Assembly (NCBI GenBank): GCA_942159475.1
Contig: OW804096.1
Coordinates: forward strand, 40,113,744 to 40,177,743
Direction of reading: 5' to 3'
Source: Sthenelais limicola
Lineage: Eukaryota > Annelida > Polychaeta > Phyllodocida > Sigalionidae
Length of the DNA: 64,000 nt
Shown here: piece by piece, positions 47,956 to 62,792 of the stretch
Position numbering within the stretch: position 1 is the stretch's first letter
Layout: each line of letters starts with the position of its first letter
Translations under genes and position numbers: made by a program
Notes under the pieces: model-generated
The model's database searches: none
Told to the model about the DNA's origin: nothing
The model's input: only the letters and a program-made list of their open reading frames with translations

Positions 47956-48111
47956 ACAGTTGGTAACTAATATGACATCCCCCTTCTTTTAAAAGTGTTT
48001 TCTTAATGAGAATGTGTATAGATCTAGCCTATTACAGTTGGTAACTAATATGACATCCCCCTTCTTTTAAAAGTGTTTTCTTAATGAGAATGTGTATAGA
48101 TCTAGCCTATT
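47956..48111 (+). repeat. 78-bp tandem duplication
   Basis: Two near-identical 78-bp copies starting ACAGTTGGTAACTAATATGA at 47,956 and 48,034, immediately downstream of the MULE-like frame. Confidence 0.95.
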
Positions 48112-49732
48112 AAGAGGCTTGCTGACACGTCCAGATCTTGTAGTGTAGCCGTTGTCATCACCATTGGATGCATTATGTTTGGTTTTCCTGTGCATTTCCC
48201 GTCTGCCGTCATGTGGCCCTTCATTAAAGGGGCCTTCTCCTCCCGGAAGTATTTCAAAAACTGTGTACCCATGTGGTGCCTGTGCACCCAGGTTGCCTCT
48301 AGCTCTTGTAGTTTTCCATCAAAGTCATCCGGACTTAAACAGTCTTTTTCACTCCCAATGACATGACCAAATATGTCATTTATGTAGATGCTGCTCACTC
48401 CACTCTGTATTTGTAGTTGGGTGAGTTTTGATTTGATATTATCTTTCATGTGCATGTCACACAGGAGATGGAAAGCGTTGGGAAAATTCCTTGAAATTGC
48501 ATTTTGTAAGTTTTGCTCCCCATCAGTTCCATAAGCTAAGAGGTCTTCCAACTTTTCATTATATTTAACAATTTTGGAGGGCAACTCATAGTAAGAAGAA
48601 TAAAGTTTTCTGTGGTGTATTAGCACCAGTCCCATCATAATTGGGTGTATTTTATTACTGTTGTGTAACTTCAGATTCCTGTAAACCGTAAAAGTAACAT
48701 AGTATTTTCCTATGTTAAATGTGGCATCAACGCCCAGAATGCAAAATTTAGTTGGATTTGTGCAAAAACATTCCAGTTCTTCTAACTGTTGTCTGTTACA
48801 CACAAATACACAGTTTGGGTTCATGCGTTAACTCATAGATAAAATTCTCTCGTGGACTGGTTGTAAAGTTATCCATAAGCATTTGTCGCACTTGGTCGTG
48901 ATTTTTTGCGTATATAATTGATTTGGTCTATGTTTCCCATAACACCTCCCATTTGGGATAGCACTTGGTTATATGTGTCTGCATGCTGTGGGACCCTTTT
49001 CTTGAACTGTTCCAATTGCAATCTTCGTGGATTCTTGTGTCCTACAATAGGGTGTTTTTACCTTGCTTTTAGAGTTGCCATGAGGTAAAGGGTTTATGTG
49101 TCTGTTTCCATCTCTGAACCATGGTGTCTACCATGCTGGAATCAAACTTCTGCACCAGAATAACAGTTTTCCGCACAGATTCTTCCGATTTATTAATGTA
49201 GGTTGTTCTTGAAATGAGGAAAGTATTTGGATCACCAAACTTTCGTTCATTTATCACTTCAGTTTTCCCTCCATGTGAAAACAAGAATGTCTTTTTTTAC
49301 CACCATTATTCCTCCAGGCTCCCATACCGTCCGAATATTTTTATAGTGTCCTATGGCTGAGGCACTAATCAGGAAAAGAGCATTGCTACTGATTGCTGAT
49401 GGGACCCGAGTAGCAATATCTTGGTGTTCAGCATTGAGTATCCTTTCTAGAGCCTCTGTTGTCAGAATGCTGCCCTCCTGTCCAGGGAAAAATGGGATCT
49501 CGCTTTGATCCTTAAAGAAGGCCCTCTCGAATACCATATCAACACTTTCACTTTCTTCATCTGTCATGGACAGAGCGTCTTTCTCTATCCTCCCTGTTGG
49601 GCAGCGGGATGCACTGTTTATAGTTGGCCAACATTCTGGATCGCTATCAGAGGATATAACAATGGACTCATTCTCTTGCTGGCTATTGCATTCAGGAACC
49701 TCAGTCAGATGGATTAGGACACACTGAAACAT
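48102..49732 (-). pseudogene. MULE-like transposase, copy 2 (more complete)
   Basis: Reading down the minus strand there is an acidic N-terminal region (49,732-49,259). A shift near 49,280 leads into a frame to 49,069 (NERKFGDPNTFLISRTTY, RWKQTHKP). A broken stretch follows (VRQMLMDNFTTSPRENFIYE), then 48,824-48,102 with [20 protein letters not shown] (first Asp), a partner [20 protein letters not shown] (second Asp), [15 protein letters not shown] and [20 protein letters not shown]. It stops before the NQNASEALNN segment that copy 1 retains. Motif order fits MULE-type DDE transposases of invertebrates. Both copies share long stretches of near-identical DNA (about 43,400-43,938 against 48,205-48,714). 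Confidence 0.6.
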
Positions 49733-50843: not shown

Positions 50844-50857
50844 GCCCTGGCTTATAT
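50844..50857 (+). repeat. LINE target-site duplication, 3' side
   Basis: GCCCTGGCTTATAT, identical over 14 bp to 55,968-55,981. It directly abuts the poly(A) tail of the LINE, which appears as a T-run on this strand. Confidence 0.9.
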
Positions 50858-51160
50858 TTTTTTTTTTTTGTCCAACATCGGATCTTTATTCATTAGAAAC
50901 ATGGGTAAAAACAAAGGAAAACAATACGCATCCGAAGCGTTTTAAAGGTGCCATAAACCCTACATATGTGTGGGAGAAATAGGCCTATGTTGCATCACAA
51001 GAATTGACCTAGTAATAATGTTACAAATAGTGTTACAATAAAGTGGACCTTGGTTTTCTGAAGAATTTTCTTCTTTTGTTATTTTTTTCATAGTTTTCGC
51101 ATTTTCTTCTTTTAGTGTATGTATCACTGGCAGTATGATTCTGTACCTTGGGGGTTTATT

Positions 51161-53956
51161 TTACAATTGTTGGTATATGAATTTCCAAGGCTTGAACAGC
51201 TTTTTGGCTGTATTATTATATTCTGCTGCGATCTTTAGACTACCTAGCCTTTTTTTTAGTTCTGGCAAGAATTGTACATATTCAATGTTATTTGCTCCGA
51301 AGAGCCTTTGGCGGTGGATGTAAGATTTCCCTGCTAGAATGATGAAGTTAATTTGTTGAGTTTTAACTCCTTTACCTCTTAGACCGAAGAAGATCTGTTG
51401 AGGGGTAAAAGGTTGTCTTATAATTGTACTAAACCCAATTAGATTGGAAATCCAATCCTTGATGTCGTTCCAAAAGACTTCTACCTTGTTACATCTTATG
51501 AAGAAGTGCATTATATCGTCACGTCTGCCACAATAGTCACAATCGTTATACAATTTGATGGACATGTGTTTAAGTTTAACATTACAGCAAATGTTACGAT
51601 GAAGGATCTTATATTGTAAGGCTTGTAGCCTCACGTCTATGGTAATTTTATAGGGTAGTTGGAAGATATGTTTCCAAGTTTCCTCTTCGTCTAGGTGATC
51701 ATTTACATTGAGTATTTCTGACCACTTAGCCAGCTTGGGTATATCAATTTTGGTGCCTAAAATAAACATATCGTATAATATTTTCGCGTTGGATTTTAAT
51801 ATATTGACTCTAGTGGCGCCAATTTTCACCATTACTTCTTCGGCAACAACATTTAGTTCTAGAGGATTTATCATTCTTTTCCACTTGTTTGGAATGGCAT
51901 GCATTACCTGTATTCTATCATAAAAATGAACATCAATACCATATCTTTGTTCTAGTTGGTCATGCGACATAAATTTTACATTGTTGTCATATACATCTTT
52001 GACCTGGACGATGTTAGCATCTTTCCAACTGCTGAAATTGATAGTTTTCTTATTACATTTGATATGTGAGTTTCTCCAAATTCTTTCTTTGAGAACCTCT
52101 GCTGATGATTCAGGGCCGTGTTTATAATAAACTTCAGCCCAAACCTCAAACATTTCTTGATAAAATTCATTGTGGAGTTTGCTAGTTTTTTCCCTCGACA
52201 GAAATATATTGTCGATGGATCTATTCTCAATCGTTCTTAACACATCAGACCATTTATCGTTGGGCGCTAAGAGCGCTCTTTGTACCCATCTTAATCTGTT
52301 TACTTTAATTATGTCAGATAAGGATCTCAGGCCCAGGCCACCTCTGTCGATGGTTTGATTGAGCCATTTGGTACCGATTTTGTTGGATCCGTTGTTCCAG
52401 ATATAATTAAGAATTGTGCCTTCGAAGATCTTGACTGTTTCTTTACATATTGTGATACAAGATAGTACATATTGTATTTTAGACAAGAGCAATGTGTTGC
52501 AAATAACAATTTTACCTTTGATTGTAAGGCTTCTGTTGCCCCATGTATTGGCTACCTCTTTGATTTCATCCGATAAGGATTTACAATTTTTTTCCACCAT
52601 TTTGAGGTGCTCGCGAGGGTATGTTAGGACAATGCCTAAGATTTTCATTTCTTGGACCCAATTGATCTCTCTAATCTCGTCATTTAAGCATTGGATGTTG
52701 CCTATATTAAAACCTTTAGTCTTTCTGATGTTTAGGTTCAGGCCTGAGACTTCAGAGAAATTTTGAATGGTTTCTAAAGCTTTTATCAAGGCGTTTTCGT
52801 TCTTTAATGTGAGTGTTATGTCGTCGGCAAACTGTACAAGTTTGCTGAGGTGGGTACCAATGTTAATTCCATCGATTTTGTCATTTAATCTAATCTTTTC
52901 GGCCAATTTTTCTATGACTAGGGTGAATAGGGTAGATGAAAGGGGGTCCCCCTGTTTCATCCCCCTATTGATCTCGAACCATGTCGAGATTGAGCCATTA
53001 TTGCTGAAGCATGCTTTGGAGTTATGGAGTAGGGTTTTGACCCACTTGATGATATATTCGCTAATATTATATGATTCTAAGCAACGGAGCAGAAAATCCC
53101 AATCAATACTATCGTAGGCTTTAGAGAAATCGAGAGACAGAACGAATCCCTCTTGGTTATTCTCCTGCAGCCACCAGATTGTGTCATCAATTCGTCTTAC
53201 TGCGTCACCTATGTACCTATTCTTAACGAAACCATGTTGGTCTTGGTCGATTAAATTTGGAAGAAAGGTATTCAATCTATTAGCTATTACTTTGGATATT
53301 AGTTTGTAATCCGAGTTGAGTAATGTTATGGGTCTCCAGTTAGCGATGTACCTGGAGTCCACCCCTTTCTTGGGTATAACATTTACTATTCCTCTGGATT
53401 GGTCTCTAGACATTTCTTCGTTGTCAATACACTCATTTAACATTTCCATAAAGAGATCTTTGATCTCAGACCAACACGCCTTATAGAATGCTACACCTAG
53501 CCCATCCGTGCCTGGGGATTTGCCAGACTTTGTACTCTTTAGTGCTGAAACAACTTCATGTTCAGAGATATTTCTCTCTAAAAAGGTTTTCTCTTGGTCG
53601 CTTAATTTCTTACTCTCATCGTACTCGATGAAGTTATGTGTGTCAGGGTGGCTCAGTTCCTTCTTAGAATATAGGGCTTTATAAAAATTCATTCCTATAC
53701 CTAGTATTTCTTTCGGTTCTGAGACCGTAACATTATTGTGGATTAATGTTTTTATTACCTTTTTCTCTGCGTTCCATTTTTCTAAGTTGAGAAAGTATTT
53801 TGAGGCCCTTTCCCCATTTACGAGCCAGTTGGCTTTTGACCTCATAAGAGCTCCCCTGGCTTTGTATCTTTCGATACTATCTAATTTGTTTTTTAGAGAT
53901 TCAAATTCCTCTAATTCGACTACATTCATGTTTTTTAGACAATCAAGGTCGTTCAA
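51161..53956 (-). CDS. LINE ORF2, reverse transcriptase part
   Basis: A 931-codon open frame. RT blocks are visible: IANWRPITLLNSDYKLISKV (~204-223), QHGFVKNRYIGDA (240-252), VLSLDFSKAYDSID (272-285, first catalytic Asp), RGMKQGDPLSSTLF (331-344) and LVQFADDITL (373-382, the catalytic Asp pair). A Cys/His motif CDYCGRRDDIMHFFIRC begins near residue 806, like the C-terminal knuckle of L1/Tx1-type elements. The frame continues upstream of its first ATG (LRDRNSDERICRKRLNDLD) and is one reading-frame shift away from the endonuclease frame. A single indel near 54,010-54,030 therefore splits what would be one ORF2 of about 1,250 residues. It copies element RNA at a nicked target site. Confidence 0.92.
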   Translation of the reverse strand: MNDLDCLKNMNVVELEEFESLKNKLDSIERYKARGALMRSKANWLVNGERASKYFLNLEKWNAEKKVIKTLIHNNVTVSEPKEILGIGMNFYKALYSKKELSHPDTHNFIEYDESKKLSDQEKTFLERNISEHEVVSALKSTKSGKSPGTDGLGVAFYKACWSEIKDLFMEMLNECIDNEEMSRDQSRGIVNVIPKKGVDSRYIANWRPITLLNSDYKLISKVIANRLNTFLPNLIDQDQHGFVKNRYIGDAVRRIDDTIWWLQENNQEGFVLSLDFSKAYDSIDWDFLLRCLESYNISEYIIKWVKTLLHNSKACFSNNGSISTWFEINRGMKQGDPLSSTLFTLVIEKLAEKIRLNDKIDGINIGTHLSKLVQFADDITLTLKNENALIKALETIQNFSEVSGLNLNIRKTKGFNIGNIQCLNDEIREINWVQEMKILGIVLTYPREHLKMVEKNCKSLSDEIKEVANTWGNRSLTIKGKIVICNTLLLSKIQYVLSCITICKETVKIFEGTILNYIWNNGSNKIGTKWLNQTIDRGGLGLRSLSDIIKVNRLRWVQRALLAPNDKWSDVLRTIENRSIDNIFLSREKTSKLHNEFYQEMFEVWAEVYYKHGPESSAEVLKERIWRNSHIKCNKKTINFSSWKDANIVQVKDVYDNNVKFMSHDQLEQRYGIDVHFYDRIQVMHAIPNKWKRMINPLELNVVAEEVMVKIGATRVNILKSNAKILYDMFILGTKIDIPKLAKWSEILNVNDHLDEEETWKHIFQLPYKITIDVRLQALQYKILHRNICCNVKLKHMSIKLYNDCDYCGRRDDIMHFFIRCNKVEVFWNDIKDWISNLIGFSTIIRQPFTPQQIFFGLRGKGVKTQQINFIILAGKSYIHRQRLFGANNIEYVQFLPELKKRLGSLKIAAEYNNTAKKLFKPWKFIYQQL

Positions 53957-53987
53957 CCGCTTTCTGCATATTCTTTCGTCAGAGTTT

Positions 53988-54899
53988 CTATCTCTCAGCT
54001 TCCTCTTTGCACATGGTAATAGAATTTAATTTTATGATATATTTGAACAAGTCCCATCGTTCTCTGGCTGGGGCAGTGCCATATTCATTGTTTACCTCTA
54101 CCAAAGTGTCTTTAACCATTGATATGTAATTGGGATCTTCTAGAATTTTATCATTTAACTTCCATAAACCACTGCTTCTTCTGTTGGAAAGTGTACTCAC
54201 ATTGATAGTAACCGTTTTATGGTCAGTAGACTCACATATTTCGGTTTGACATTGGGTGACTCTGTTAATCATACCATTATCTACAAAAATATAGTCTAGT
54301 CTTGATATGGAGTTGGAATTAGCTCTTCTCCAAGTATGAATCGGTTTACCATCTTCTTGTATTTTACATATGTCTACCAAATCGAGCTCTTCTAGCATAT
54401 CATTCAAGACAACTTTGTTTTTAAACTTGTCGCCTTGATCGAGGTCAATGTTGAAATCACCTAAAAGTACCAATCTATCGAAATTAGATTTTTCAATGAT
54501 ATCTCTTATGCTACCTAATACCTTGACCTGGTCATTTGGGTAATTGCTTGTTGGCATATAAGTATTAATGATCAAAAATATTTCATCTTCTATTTTTGTT
54601 CTTACGTATATGATTCTACCGTCAAGGTCTCTACCTTCAGAGTAATTTGAGAATTTTACATCTTTGGTGAATAATATTGCCACTCCTCTGCTATTTGAGA
54701 GACCGTGGCTTACACACATGTGGAATTTCCACTGGCTTTTCCAGATTTCAAAGCCCTCTTTCGTACTATGGGTTTCCTGCAACCCAATGATACCTTTTTT
54801 GATTTTACTGAGATTGGAGAACATAGATTTTCTTTTTTCAATACTATTTAGTCCGTTGACGTTGAGTGAGGTAAAGTTGATGCGGTCGTGCTTATACAT
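53988..54899 (-). CDS. LINE ORF2, APE-type endonuclease part
   Basis: A 303-codon frame starting 51 bp after the ORF1 stop. The apurinic-endonuclease fold motifs are intact and in order: INFTSLNVNGLNS (Asn), IIGLQETHS (catalytic Glu), NSRGVAILF, LIINTYMPTS, LVLLGDFNIDLD (Asp, Asn), SRLDYIFVD and STDHKTV (Asp-His). The enzyme nicks the target to prime reverse transcription. The frame ends MCKEEAER then TAG because of a 1-base shift into the RT frame. This could be a real inactivating mutation or an assembly error, since the rest of ORF2 is clean. Confidence 0.92.
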   Translation of the reverse strand: MYKHDRINFTSLNVNGLNSIEKRKSMFSNLSKIKKGIIGLQETHSTKEGFEIWKSQWKFHMCVSHGLSNSRGVAILFTKDVKFSNYSEGRDLDGRIIYVRTKIEDEIFLIINTYMPTSNYPNDQVKVLGSIRDIIEKSNFDRLVLLGDFNIDLDQGDKFKNKVVLNDMLEELDLVDICKIQEDGKPIHTWRRANSNSISRLDYIFVDNGMINRVTQCQTEICESTDHKTVTINVSTLSNRRSSGLWKLNDKILEDPNYISMVKDTLVEVNNEYGTAPARERWDLFKYIIKLNSITMCKEEAER

Positions 54900-54950
54900 G
54901 ATGGTGTGAATAGTCTAGTTCAATGAGGTTTTATATTAGTTGGTCATAGT

Positions 54951-55916
54951 TTAATCGCTTTCTTTGGGTTGGTAGAGTTGCTCTACGTTCTTCTTGTTGA
55001 GTACTTGTCTGAGGGCTTCCCAGGTTTTCCCTAGCAAATTACCCTCTGTGACCCATTTCTCGACCTTTAGAACGTCGGGATGGCTCAGGGTCATCCCGAT
55101 GCCCCACACTTCGTTTTTGGAAGCCTCTCCTAGTTGTTTTTCTCCCGTGTTTAGAAGGTACTGTCTGACAACCTCGTTCTGTTGGACTTTCGCCCGCAGC
55201 CCTTTGGTTAGCAGTTCAGCCCTCCTCTTTTCCAATGTTTCGTCGACCTCTCCTCTTTTGAACTCGTTCAGTACTTCCTTGGCTCTGGCTGGGTCTTTCT
55301 GTCTCATAACGAATTCCGCTTTGAGGGGATCTTTTGCTATCTTTGCCCTCCAATAGGCAAGGTATTGTTCGACGTGGTCGAACCGTCTCTTGTCTAGATT
55401 GAAGGGGGACGGGTACTGGTTTGACAAGGGGTTCTCTCTCGTGAAAAAGACGAATGCATACAAGGATTCTTTCTTGGAGAGAAAGCTAAGCGTGAATTTA
55501 GTTGGGAGCGTTTCCAAGCAGTTATGTGCATACGTGACATTTCCTATCTTGACATTGCCATTGTTGTTAAAGGCTTTCTTGCCTGCTGCTCGTGCGGTTT
55601 TAACAACAATGTTGGCCCTATGGATCCTCTCTCTTAACATAAGGGGGAGATCCTGTTTGACATAAAGCGGCTTTTTTCCATCTACTTTGTCCTGATTTTT
55701 TAGATTAGCGCGTTTGTCCCATACTTCTAGTGCGTGATCGACGGTTTCGAAGACAACCTTTATGGGGGCTTGGGCTCCTTTCCCCATTCTGAAGACTTCG
55801 GAGATGCCTTCGCTTTCGGCGCCCATTATTCCGCGAAACACGTCTTCTTGTAACCTATCTTCTATTTTGGCTTCAGCCCCTTGCACAAGGGCCTGGAAGT
55901 CCTTGTCATCTTTCAT
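54951..55916 (-). CDS. LINE ORF1: RRM-like region fused to a NADAR domain
   Basis: 321 codons from the first ATG inside the insertion. Residues ~35-115 resemble the RRM-type nucleic-acid-binding part of L1/Tx1 ORF1 proteins: VFRMG, APIKVVFETVDHALEVWDK, LYVKQDLPLMLRERIHRA. Residues ~140-310 match the NADAR/YbiA family: FVFFTRENPLSNQYPSPFNL (the FSNF..F segment), FDHVEQYLAYWRAK (the conserved [T/V]EHY helix with its Glu), VVRQYLLNTGEKQLGEAS, NEVWGIGMTLSHP and GNLLGKTWEALRQVL. NADAR proteins cleave N-glycosidic bonds in riboflavin intermediates and ADP-ribosyl-guanine adducts. The conserved Glu is present, so activity is possible. No coiled coil is seen upstream; the 5' end is probably truncated. 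Confidence 0.85.
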   Translation of the reverse strand: MKDDKDFQALVQGAEAKIEDRLQEDVFRGIMGAESEGISEVFRMGKGAQAPIKVVFETVDHALEVWDKRANLKNQDKVDGKKPLYVKQDLPLMLRERIHRANIVVKTARAAGKKAFNNNGNVKIGNVTYAHNCLETLPTKFTLSFLSKKESLYAFVFFTRENPLSNQYPSPFNLDKRRFDHVEQYLAYWRAKIAKDPLKAEFVMRQKDPARAKEVLNEFKRGEVDETLEKRRAELLTKGLRAKVQQNEVVRQYLLNTGEKQLGEASKNEVWGIGMTLSHPDVLKVEKWVTEGNLLGKTWEALRQVLNKKNVEQLYQPKESD

Positions 55917-55967
55917 TACTGCCCCTTCCTTCAGGGCTCTAATATCTGCGTCCTGTCTGTTATCCCT

Positions 55968-55981
55968 GCCCTGGCTTATAT
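55968..55981 (+). repeat. LINE target-site duplication, 5' side
   Basis: GCCCTGGCTTATAT, a perfect match to 50,844-50,857. The target lies in a short region with several GGCTTATAT motifs (55,974; ~56,014; ~56,029), so the insertion site itself is repetitive. Confidence 0.9.
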
Positions 55982-56129
55982 TAATTTCAAATGGTGAATT
56001 GACCCGGCTTATATTCAGGGTGGGCTTATATTTCAATAACTGAAAACTAATAGATTTAATACAGTAGCCCTGCCACACTTGTACACAACAGGGATTACAT
56101 ACAGTAGTAGCCCTGCCACACTTGTACAC

Positions 56130-59926: not shown

Positions 59927-62792
59927 TTATAAAAGGTAAATTATTGAAATATCAATGAAAAAAAAATGTGAATATTGTAAAATAAGAATGGCATTGTACC
60001 GGTAAATGACCTGTGCACGTCGAGCGCGACCAGCTCCGTAGCGTGAGTGATCTACAGCATAGTCTCTTGATGGTTGTTCAGTACGGTCATTTGGGGTGGG
60101 GTGCAGTGTCTTGCGCCTCAAACTCTCTTGGACGTTTGGGTCCGGGTCAGTGAGGTTCACAGGGAAATCGTCAAGGCTAGCGTCAAGGCATATATTGTGC
60201 AATATACAGCACGCGGTGACAATGCTGCTAGCATTCTCTGGATTCTTTAGCATGACACCACCTCCTTCGCTAAATTGAACAAAACAATCGTTATTAAAAG
60301 ATGATTTTTTTGGTATTTACATCGGGATAACAGAGAGGAGAAGATAGAAATAAAAAGGTTGTCTAAGGAAATTTAAGAATATGATATAACAATATACAGT
60401 AATGTATGTACAATGTCATGTAATAATGCTTAAAACCATACATATAACATAAAATCCATGCATCTCCCATATTATGATAATAATATTATATCTTACCTCC
60501 AGCGCCTCTTGAGTTCCCCAAACGCACGCTTGATAGTGTTACGCACCTATGTATGGCGTTCTTGGTAACGCGTTCTGCATGGGTGAATGGACCCATTGCC
60601 GGAAATGGTATCAGCATGTAAGGAGTCAATGCGTACCGGCAACAAACCAGAATCAGTTAATTTACACCATATACACATTTGAACCAGGCATGAGCAGGGC
60701 AAAAGAGCGGGTTAAGTGCAATTTTCACAAAAACAAAAAAAATTACCGGTATGTGTAATTGCCACATTGCACGAATAAAAGTTGATGCTGGCTTGGATTA
60801 AATAGGGAAGTAGAGTCAGATTTTCCTATCTCTATTCATTATGCTCTAAGATACAAGTCAATGTAGGATATGATTACTCACCCTCCATCGCCCAGGAGAA
60901 AATACTTCTTTGGTAGAAAAGTAGGCGACGCAACAAATGCACAAAGGGTTGTTTGCTCCCAAACATACTGATCATGATGGGTGCTCCCAAAGCTGGGTTC
61001 GATGAACCAGAAACTCGCATTTGCATCACAAATGGCCTGAAACAAAAATGTAGGGATGAACCTGGGTAATACATAATGAAAGTGGGTCCAAAGTGACACA
61101 AAATGTTAGATGTCAATGCATATATATGCATATTGTGTATGAAGTATGATTGAACAGTTCAGTGAAATAATGAACATGAAATGCACTATCACACAAACAA
61201 TTCTGTTTACTTACCAGCACATTAAGGGAGTGATAGCCATGTCGTGAAATAAAAGTCTGTTCTTGAAGCAGCGGTTTTGTGATGGCTATGTTGGTGCCAT
61301 CCACACAGCCAATGGTGTCCGGAAACCCATGTAGGGTGGAAAAATCAGCCGATAAACGGGCTAGGTCAGTCCTGAATAATGGTACATTTACAATAATGAT
61401 AACATTAAGTGGCAATGGCTCGATACCTTTCCAAGAATATGTCAATGATATTAGTAGTAAAACAACCAACCGTGGTGCAGAGCAGCCTTGTATTATCGCC
61501 CACAGGGTGTTACTCAATGTGGTGCAACACCCTCAGGTGTCACTGTCAACAGACAGTGATAAGTGACAGTGACAGCTCTGGAAAGTAGTGATAAGTGACA
61601 GTGACAGCTCTGGAAAGTAGCGTGGGTGGGAGGGTGGGAGTGTTACACCCCCACCCACCCGTAAACGTGTGATGTCTTCGACGCATAGGGAAATTCTGGG
61701 ATTAGATAGATTCCACACTTGATTCGATGTTTTTTCGGTGAGCAGGTACAATACGAGCACAAATTCAGAGTTGAAGCGGTGGATAAGATACAAGAAATCA
61801 GTAAAATACGTAAAACCTTCGAGGGTTCCATTTTGCCGACTCTTTCTTTCTGCCAACTTTTCTGTAGATCGTTTAGACTTTAGTCCAAGGAGCGTCAAAA
61901 CGAAAGCCCTAGTAAAAAGGCGCCAGACGAAATAAGGATTACCTCCGTACACATTCAAAAATAACAAATATCCTATTTTTCGGTTAAACATTTTATTTTA
62001 ACTTTAAAAATATAAATTATATTTTAGAAGATAAGATGCCACTATTACGCGGAAAATAAAATATAATGATTGCTAAAAAAAAGTGGGGGTGGGGGGGCCA
62101 AATGTTGGTTGTTCAGCTCATCAATGCTAAAAGGATGCATGTCCATAGCCTTCAATTAAGTTCATACATAACATACCTAGATTGTTATGTCCACCACTTA
62201 AAGCAGACTATGCATAGCGTAGTACTAGTAGGACTTCTGGACACTTGGTCAGTAACTCAAATTACTTCCACATTTAAGCTATGAATGTATATAAAAATTA
62301 ATTAAAAGAATTCTCTTTGTTAGATTATTCAAATAGTGTTTCCCATAAGTGCATTTCTTACTTTGGGTGGCTTGATGTACTTTCGTTTACGTTCAAGTAT
62401 TCCACAAACGCGTCCACACTTTGATTAACTGTAGCCCTGGACACTCCCTGGGTGTCATCGATGATCTTGTAATCCGCACCAGTGGCCAGATACCAAAGGG
62501 TTAGACAAACCTTCAAAGCAATAGTGATACCGTACAATAGGTAAACACATGCGATGATACATGTAGGTAATAATTATTAAATGAACGGGTAACGGAACGG
62601 GTAACTAGAGTTTGAATGTTACCTTGTCTTCTGGTGAAATGGCACCCCCACGTGTCTCAGTTGGTATTCCACGATAGGAAGGACTGGCTGCAAACAGGGC
62701 AGCAAGGTGATGTAATTCGGTAACCGGTATCGGGAAATGAAGTCATGCGGTCGTTGCCATTCTTCCAAAGGGCTGATGCGCCTACGGTAGAT
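59927..62792 (-). pseudogene. HARBI1-like PIF/Harbinger transposase gene, two frameshifts
   Basis: Minus-strand exons: 62792-62623 (RRRISPLEEWQRPHDFISRY.., after a shift TETRGGAISPEDK), 62510-62362 (VCLTLWYLATGADYKIIDDT, VSRATVNQSVDAFVEYL), 61371-61215 (GFPDTIGCVDGTNIAI with the first catalytic Asp, RHGYHSLNVL), 61036-60882 (AICDANASFWFIEP, STHHDQYVW with the second Asp, FLLGDGG), about 60,660-60,497 (RYALTPYMLIPF, shift, RNTIKRAFGELKRRW with the catalytic Glu region) and 60269-59927 (IVTACCILHNICLD). Most junctions are consensus with agreeing phases. Frameshifts near 62,665-62,690 and 60,545 and a missing acceptor for exon 5 suggest decay, or assembly indels. No terminal repeats were found, so it is either a dead transposon or a decayed domesticated HARBI1 paralogue. 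Confidence 0.75.
61557..61620 (+). repeat. 32-bp tandem duplication
   Basis: Two copies of GTGATAAGTGACAGTGACAG plus ctctggaaagta, with starts 32 bp apart, lying inside an intron of the HARBI1-like gene. Confidence 0.9.

Follow-up and report, generated by a model that had tools for sequence, protein, structure and literature searches.

A NADAR domain fused to the ORF1 protein of an L1-superfamily LINE family in the annelid Sthenelais limicola

The window analysed here, a stretch of 64,000 nucleotides from Sthenelais limicola, carries on its minus strand the remains of a LINE whose first open reading frame (ORF1) ends in a NADAR domain (Table 1). In its longest reading ORF1 spans 56129..54951 and encodes 392 amino acids, the start lying in flanking DNA outside the inserted element; from the first ATG (55916) it yields the 321 amino acid product given in an earlier note on this DNA. 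A plus-strand reading of 54951..55967 was ruled out by 11 stops within these coordinates. Residues 231 to 377 match Pfam PF08719 (NADAR) at E=4.3e-19 and 69.8 bits, against a curated cut-off of 35.1, and TIGR02464, a profile whose name denotes an N-glycosidase acting on riboflavin intermediates, scores 70.8 bits, slightly below its cut-off of 73.7. The best PDB sequence match is the NADAR protein of Phytophthora nicotianae (8bau, E=4e-10), and PDB and predicted-structure matches both place window-type ORF1s in the NADAR fold. The earlier note had proposed this domain identity, and the profile match, the fold and the conserved glutamate, any of which might have been missing, were each found.

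Table 1. Features of the LINE copy in the window (strand relative to the window; P. nicotianae NADAR numbering for residues).
Feature	Position	Strand	Basis
NADAR domain	54999..55439	-	
ORF1 remnant, first ATG 55916 (321 aa)	54951..55967	-	ORF reading and element borders
L1-type RRM, ~30 residues deleted in frame relative to intact relatives	55644..55907	-	VIA-align, RRMs at model residues ~39-126
L1-type ORF1 C-terminal domain (CTD)	55491..55643	-	human L1 ORF1p trimer match, model residues 18-184
Glu, E43 equivalent	55368..55370	-	alignment; model residue 218
Conserved W89 position, Leu in window copy	55233..55235	-	alignment; all 17 other family ORF1s have Trp
Glu, E125 equivalent, YbiA-subfamily marker	55125..55127	-	alignment
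Inserted LINE copy, 5'-truncated inside ORF1, 3' poly(A) tail ~50857-50869	50859..55967	-	blastn to L009, L010; flanking duplication
Target-site duplication, 5' copy, 15 bp	55968..55982	.	exact 15-base repeat flanking element
Target-site duplication, 3' copy, two-base overlap with poly(A) tail end	50844..50858	.	exact repeat
ORF2, AP-endonuclease part	53988..54899	-	Pfam Exo_endo_phos E=8e-9
ORF2, reverse transcriptase part and zinc-binding region	51161..53956	-	RVT_1 E=2e-42; zf-RVT E=5e-5, slightly below cut-off

Within the same genome, blastn aligns the window copy to locus L009 at 98.0% identity over 4988 bp and to L010 at 98.7% over 3562 bp. Homology to both starts exactly at 55967, which the earlier note had taken as its upper coordinate and which is the exact 5' end of the inserted element, the 15 bp duplication starting at 55968; homology to L009 stops at about 50857. 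The shared border, the exact 15 bp repeat and the poly(A) tail indicate that the window holds one target-primed insertion that was 5'-truncated within ORF1. As previously claimed, 51 nt separate the ORF1 stop from the AP-endonuclease ORF, which is followed by the reverse transcriptase ORF out of frame with the endonuclease part. Set against its relatives, the copy is about 30 RRM residues short, its ORF2 frame is interrupted, and Leu stands at the position of a conserved NADAR Trp. Since the 5' end is truncated, the RRM partly deleted and the ORF2 frame broken, the element is not intact: the LINE context proposed in the earlier note is correct, with the reservation that this copy has a truncated 5' end and a broken ORF2. 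The window copy is dead and contributes nothing to function.

The front half of ORF1, earlier described as RRM-like, is assigned by its predicted structure to L1 ORF1p, as an L1-type RRM followed by a CTD; the description thus gains a second domain, and the RRM itself is damaged in this copy. Compared with a type II ORF1 (coiled coil, RRM, CTD), the coiled coil of the window copy is truncated as well. In the ORF1s scanned, Pfam, with E allowed up to 1, gave no RRM or CTD match, and a PDB profile search with A2 as the query recovered NADAR but not L1 ORF1p. Structure prediction gives the ORF1p of intact relatives the order coiled coil, RRM, CTD, NADAR. In P0008, a full-length ORF1 from a Logan assembly, Foldseek matched the human L1 ORF1p trimer (E=4e-6) and NADAR (3e-10) within one chain. 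The coiled coil, RRM and CTD of P0008 stand in the identical order in human LINE-1 ORF1p (type II), in which we know of no NADAR domain.

A search of the genome (1.13 Gb, 161 contigs) with the window ORF1 returned at least 149 matches, some of them pieces of one copy (105 were scored of 5038 first-look candidates), at loci on nine contigs and with identities of 38-98%, the window copy itself excluded. Half of the 20 loci fetched (L014, L017, L018, L019, L020, L022, L023, L024, L025 and L027) combine a single-frame ORF1 of 472-525 aa with a single-frame ORF2 of 1239-1254 aa, the two being separated by 51-54 nt in seven loci and by 70, 246 and 428 nt in L027, L025 and L024, respectively. Flanking repeats of 13-22 bp occur at 14 of 16 loci scanned, and of 11 bp at the remaining two; when 3' flanks were compared with the 5' flanks of other loci as a control, 3 of 240 mismatched pairs reached 13 bp. 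NADAR scored above the Pfam cut-off in all eight relatives' ORF1s scanned, and endonuclease and reverse transcriptase were present in all five ORF2s scanned. Among solved chains, human L1 ORF2p is closest to the ORF2 of L018, with residues 5-1144 aligned (E=1.5e-90; best R2 match 2e-17), and because L018 is far closer to L1 than to R2, the element belongs to the L1 superfamily. The other features agree, namely an ORF2 with AP-endonuclease (APE) and reverse transcriptase, a poly(A) tail with target-site duplication and, by predicted structure, a type II ORF1. Some copies of the family moved so recently that a few base changes separate their ORF1s; those of L020 and L047 differ by two synonymous changes.

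An ORF1 profile matched 5521 proteins at E up to 0.001. Among the best 120 of these 5521, almost all of the 40 highest-ranking new ORF1-like proteins (P0004-P0043; E 2.5e-75 to 1.8e-47) stem from Logan assemblies; 18 have at least 450 aa, and in 38 the NADAR domain ends at most 20 residues from the C-terminus. These similar ORF1s, which we call Logan LINE ORF1s (P0002-P0038, P0040-P0043) on protein similarity alone, indicate that the NADAR fusion is not confined to this genome.

Searching the genome with the NADAR profile gave at least 150 matches over the cut-off (5561 candidates, 150 of them scored); the frames range from 162 to 827 aa, and an internal stop shows in two match rows. At least ten of these loci lie outside the window type (L029-L038), with open frames of 574-648 aa in five and 307-520 aa in five; in five of the ten, scanned with Pfam, 73-227 residues lie C-terminal of NADAR. 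The downstream sequence was covered for two of them: an endonuclease/reverse transcriptase frame of 971 aa lies downstream of L031 (as L040), and a 210-aa ORF followed by an ORF2 of 978 aa lies downstream of L033 (as L039). These two ORF2s share 27% identity with each other over 965 aa and 21-26% with the window type over parts, the pair L024 and L040 being unmatched in one direction; against human L1, the reverse transcriptase alone of the L039 ORF2 matches (6.5e-17). When NADAR is left out, RRM and CTD of the window type match those of the other LINE type at 98.7% probability (E=3e-16). A NADAR tree of 77 of the 150 domains after thinning, built with no outgroup, contains a cluster of the window type, Logan ORF1s and P0093 (100/95), one of the other LINE ORF1s (99/96) and one of 40 further proteins (98/87), with long branches leading to L033, P0039 and P0044. 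Given three clusters, no outgroup and long branches, the tree cannot separate one NADAR capture followed by ORF1 exchange from two captures onto related ORF1s, and fits either. ORF1 evolution has been described as reticulate, with type II ORF1s in CR1 and L2 (PMC4120745).

Several smaller observations concern these NADAR loci. An ORF beginning LSDSRG or IITDSRG stands right after the NADAR ORF1 at L039:304-936 (+), where it precedes ORF2, at L033:2492-3199 and at L036:2631-3281. The 210-aa ORF of L039 has a weak GDSL/SGNH match (E=0.0086, below cut-off), and no Pfam family was found for the similar-looking ORF beside L036; the ORF of these other-type LINEs is possibly esterase-like. P0039 and P0044, NADAR proteins of 301 and 427 aa with an N-terminal extension on contigs of 139 kb and 40 kb, branch beside the LINE NADARs, and P0044 has a weak, sub-threshold match to phage gp30.3 (E=0.00028). 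At C1:94855254-94855679, C1:89380390-89380815 and C1:66983187-66983612, NADAR matches fall in frames that each measure 162 aa, less than the ORF1 frames.

An alignment to 8bau supplied the numbering of active-site residues (two subtracted from the chain number), and the eleven side-chain residues tested agree with the letters in PMC11543638. In the window-type set of 18 ORF1s, which includes the window copy and leaves out L009 (a near-duplicate of L010), L011 (5'-truncated) and L028 (frame broken before NADAR), E43, E125, W133 and K75 are invariant; E43 is the conserved glutamate to which the earlier note had pointed. R93 is kept in 14, W89 in 17, the sole exception being the dead window copy (Leu), and position 50 is Arg in 15 and Lys in 3. 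Glu rather than Asp or His at 125 is a mark of the YbiA subfamily (PMC11125620, PMC11543638), to which E43 and the basic residue at 50 also point. For comparison we took 81 other NADARs, which are those most like the LINE query and not a fair sample, and which include P0039, P0044 and P0093 from near or among the LINE NADARs in the tree. With an alignment register that is uncertain by one residue around R79-D86 and D130, position 79 is Arg in 73 of these 81 and in none of 69 LINE domains (0/18 in the window type), position 84 is Phe or Tyr in 78 of 81 against 0/18 window-type and 0/41 Logan ORF1s, with Phe in 4/10 of the other LINE ORF1s, and position 130 is Asp in 78 of 81 against Asn in 15 and Gln in 3 of the window type. 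L010 reads Glu/Glu at positions 79 and 84 in one alignment and Asn/Gly in another, with Arg or an aromatic in neither register. The Logan ORF1s (n=41) have E43 in 41, E125 in 40, W89 in 41, and at 130 Asp in 10 and Asn in 31. All ten other LINE ORF1s, of which about six are independent (L029, L031, L032 and L037 are 97-100% alike, L033 and L034 99%), have E43, E125, W89, W133 and D130, and six have Lys at 50.

R79 and Y84 touch ADP-ribose in the Phytophthora NADAR (PMC11543638), and E. coli YbiA likewise lacks an aromatic at Y84 in the PDB-search alignment. A K50 Arg mutant of an E. coli C7 enzyme hydrolysed its substrate in vitro and did not rescue cells (PMC11543638). From these alignments, the window family keeps E43 and E125, with the adenine and pyrophosphate contacts and D130 apparently changed. 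The LINE domain differs from P. nicotianae NADAR (8bau) and E. coli YbiA (2b3w) at R79, Y84, D130 and usually K50, and of the three it alone is fused to an RNA-binding retroelement protein. Functional information comes from SNA-3, a nematode trans-splicing protein with three NADAR domains that acts in RNA metabolism; mutating its active-site homologues, including an Asp homologous to a residue critical for YbiA activity, is reported to impair function (PMC9303266). This Asp corresponds to D130 by its spacing from W133 (an Asp-x-x-Trp pair), and the apparent loss of D130 from the window family speaks against catalysis of the ordinary kind there. SNA-3 resembles the LINE proteins as an animal protein working on RNA in which NADAR active-site homologues matter, but it is a host gene, said in the cited text to be confined to nematodes, and not a retroelement (PMC9303266).

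Selection was assessed on 27 ORF1 coding sequences, of which 20 pairs have dS under 1.2; dN/dS is under 0.2 in all 20. In eight pairs sharing no sequence (three from one subfamily, change counts derived from rounded values), NADAR has 31 synonymous changes over 850 sites and 16 nonsynonymous over 3107 (dN/dS 0.14), and RRM plus CTD has 31 over 735 and 11 over 2703 (dN/dS 0.10). When all pairs are taken together, most of them with saturated dS, the median pN comes to 0.287 in NADAR, 0.314 in RRM plus CTD (351 pairs each) and 0.435 in the coiled coil (325 pairs). NADAR is under purifying selection, with a constraint about that on the RNA-binding core.

A NADAR-LINE ORF1 fusion is already in print. 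NADAR-like ORF1s, whose role is called unclear in the part of the paper that concerns them, have been reported in Tx1 LINEs of the oyster Crassostrea gigas, with processing of RNA intermediates as the suggestion (PMC12477816, 2025). The oyster elements share with ours a LINE ORF1 with a YbiA-family NADAR domain; new relative to that account are the domain order, the intact copies, the active-site survey, the selection analysis, the predicted structure and NADAR in LINEs with different ORF2s. The clade name Tx1 is that of the oyster paper. A search mainly of open-access literature found no other report of NADAR in LINEs; the earlier note, which knew of no characterized example, is borne out on characterization, though not on occurrence. 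The oyster paper also describes NADAR domains in the N-terminal region of Pol in Ectocarpus Gypsy elements (PMC12477816), again on a retrotransposon, but on an LTR element and in Pol rather than a LINE ORF1. An enzyme domain within a LINE ORF1p is otherwise known from the ZfL2-1-type esterase, an enzyme unrelated to NADAR, and this ORF1p type has been called unique among ORF1ps for its enzymatic function (PMC3905857).

That the fusion and the NADAR fold are real is practically certain: the window copy is dead, yet its intact relatives retain a good part of the active site, and the fusion recurs in many subfamilies, in intact two-ORF copies with flanking repeats, with conserved NADAR glutamates and under purifying selection. 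A chance fusion, a hitch-hiking host gene or a misassembly at one locus, for which the broken window copy would be the sole support, is scarcely credible, being contradicted by diverged loci on nine contigs, by an unchanged ORF order and a spacing of 51-70 nt in eight of ten intact loci, by the flanking repeats and by similar ORF1 proteins in other public assemblies. E43 and E125 together with selection imply activity, an implication weakened by the loss of D130; we consider that the domain is probably an active enzyme, an estimate that was lowered after position 130 was re-checked and in view of the SNA-3 mutation data (PMC9303266). Our preferred explanation, to which we give a probability of roughly 45%, is that the NADAR carried by ORF1p de-modifies nucleic acid of the element and so guards it against host modification. 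ORF1p would coat and package the element RNA, as L1 ORF1p does, and bring NADAR along into the ribonucleoprotein (RNP), where it would act as a ribosyl-N-glycosidase, most likely stripping ADP-ribose or a related nucleotide adduct from guanines of element RNA or cDNA; such removal would protect the element from host nucleic-acid modification. That de-modification of nucleic acid is the main task of the domain we put forward tentatively. N2-ADP-ribosyl-guanine is a NADAR substrate, and guanosine-ADPr was hydrolysed by the NADAR/YbiA proteins tested (PMC11543638, PMC11125620). Clam CARP-1 is an animal enzyme that makes this adduct; that a NADAR erases CARP-1 products is put forward in the literature as an assumption. 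The earlier note had suggested a possible role against PARP- or DarT-like modification. DarT was considered in two roles and rejected in both: no linked DarT accompanies the window ORF1, which is followed by APE and reverse transcriptase ORFs rather than forming a DarT-NADAR toxin-antitoxin pair, and a search for a host DarT as counter-player, made with the single profile PF14487 on individual exons, gave no match in the genome.

The main rival to de-modification of ADP-ribosylated guanine is an active N-glycosidase with a changed substrate, either another ribosylated nucleotide or an RNA end, in RNA processing or repair. The replacement of R79, Y84 and D130 and the mostly Arg position 50, with E43 and E125 retained, would suit it, as would the processing of RNA intermediates suggested for the oyster (PMC12477816), the place of SNA-3 in animal RNA processing (PMC9303266) and the near-threshold TIGR02464 score with its riboflavin-intermediate name. 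The absent Y84 aromatic is less telling, as E. coli YbiA also lacks it and the tested NADAR/YbiA proteins nonetheless hydrolysed guanosine-ADPr (PMC11125620), and we regard this reading as rather unlikely. The same three replacements could instead mean that the domain is non-catalytic and was repurposed as a nucleotide-binding or protein-contact module; we doubt this more strongly, since E43, E125 and W133 are invariant, W89 fails in the dead window copy only, and NADAR is constrained like RRM plus CTD. Lower still we place the destruction of soluble ADP-ribose-type immune signals, as proposed for phage NADARs (PMC9503650), in place of nucleic-acid adducts: its attachment to an RNP protein that binds RNA suggests a substrate held in the RNP, and the same paper favours macromolecular targets for the NADARs of eukaryotic RNA viruses (PMC9503650).

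A wider proposal, which we hold to be doubtful, is that in one genome LINEs of at least two ORF2 clades have in common an enzymatic RRM-CTD-NADAR ORF1, exchanged or ancestral, with which the retrotransposons would counter a host defence by taking ADP-ribose, or an adduct related to it, off their own nucleic acid. If it were true, many of the NADARs reported in animals would be LINE ORF1 domains, host genes such as SNA-3 aside. A NADAR present on many LINEs and under purifying selection suggests a concrete, testable role as an enzyme on the retrotransposon RNP, which would then join the esterase ORF1s as a second type of enzymatic ORF1. It also provides a lead that hosts may use nucleic-acid ADP-ribosylation against retroelements, and the replaced ligand residues offer a natural test of NADAR specificity.

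Other mobile-element sequences lie near the window copy and its relatives. On the minus strand of the window, the ORF at 48102-48824 encodes a MULE transposase domain (E=3.9e-8), the one at 61113-61517 matches DDE_Tnp_4 weakly and under the cut-off (E=0.008), and no family match was found for 59927-60253; by eye the latter two resemble a Harbinger-type transposase, of which they are presumably a remnant. The NADAR LINE copy L010 has to its 3' side a 994-aa ORF (L010:172-3156, minus strand) that by eye belongs to another LINE, and the similarity between L010 and L009 stops about 100 bases short of it.
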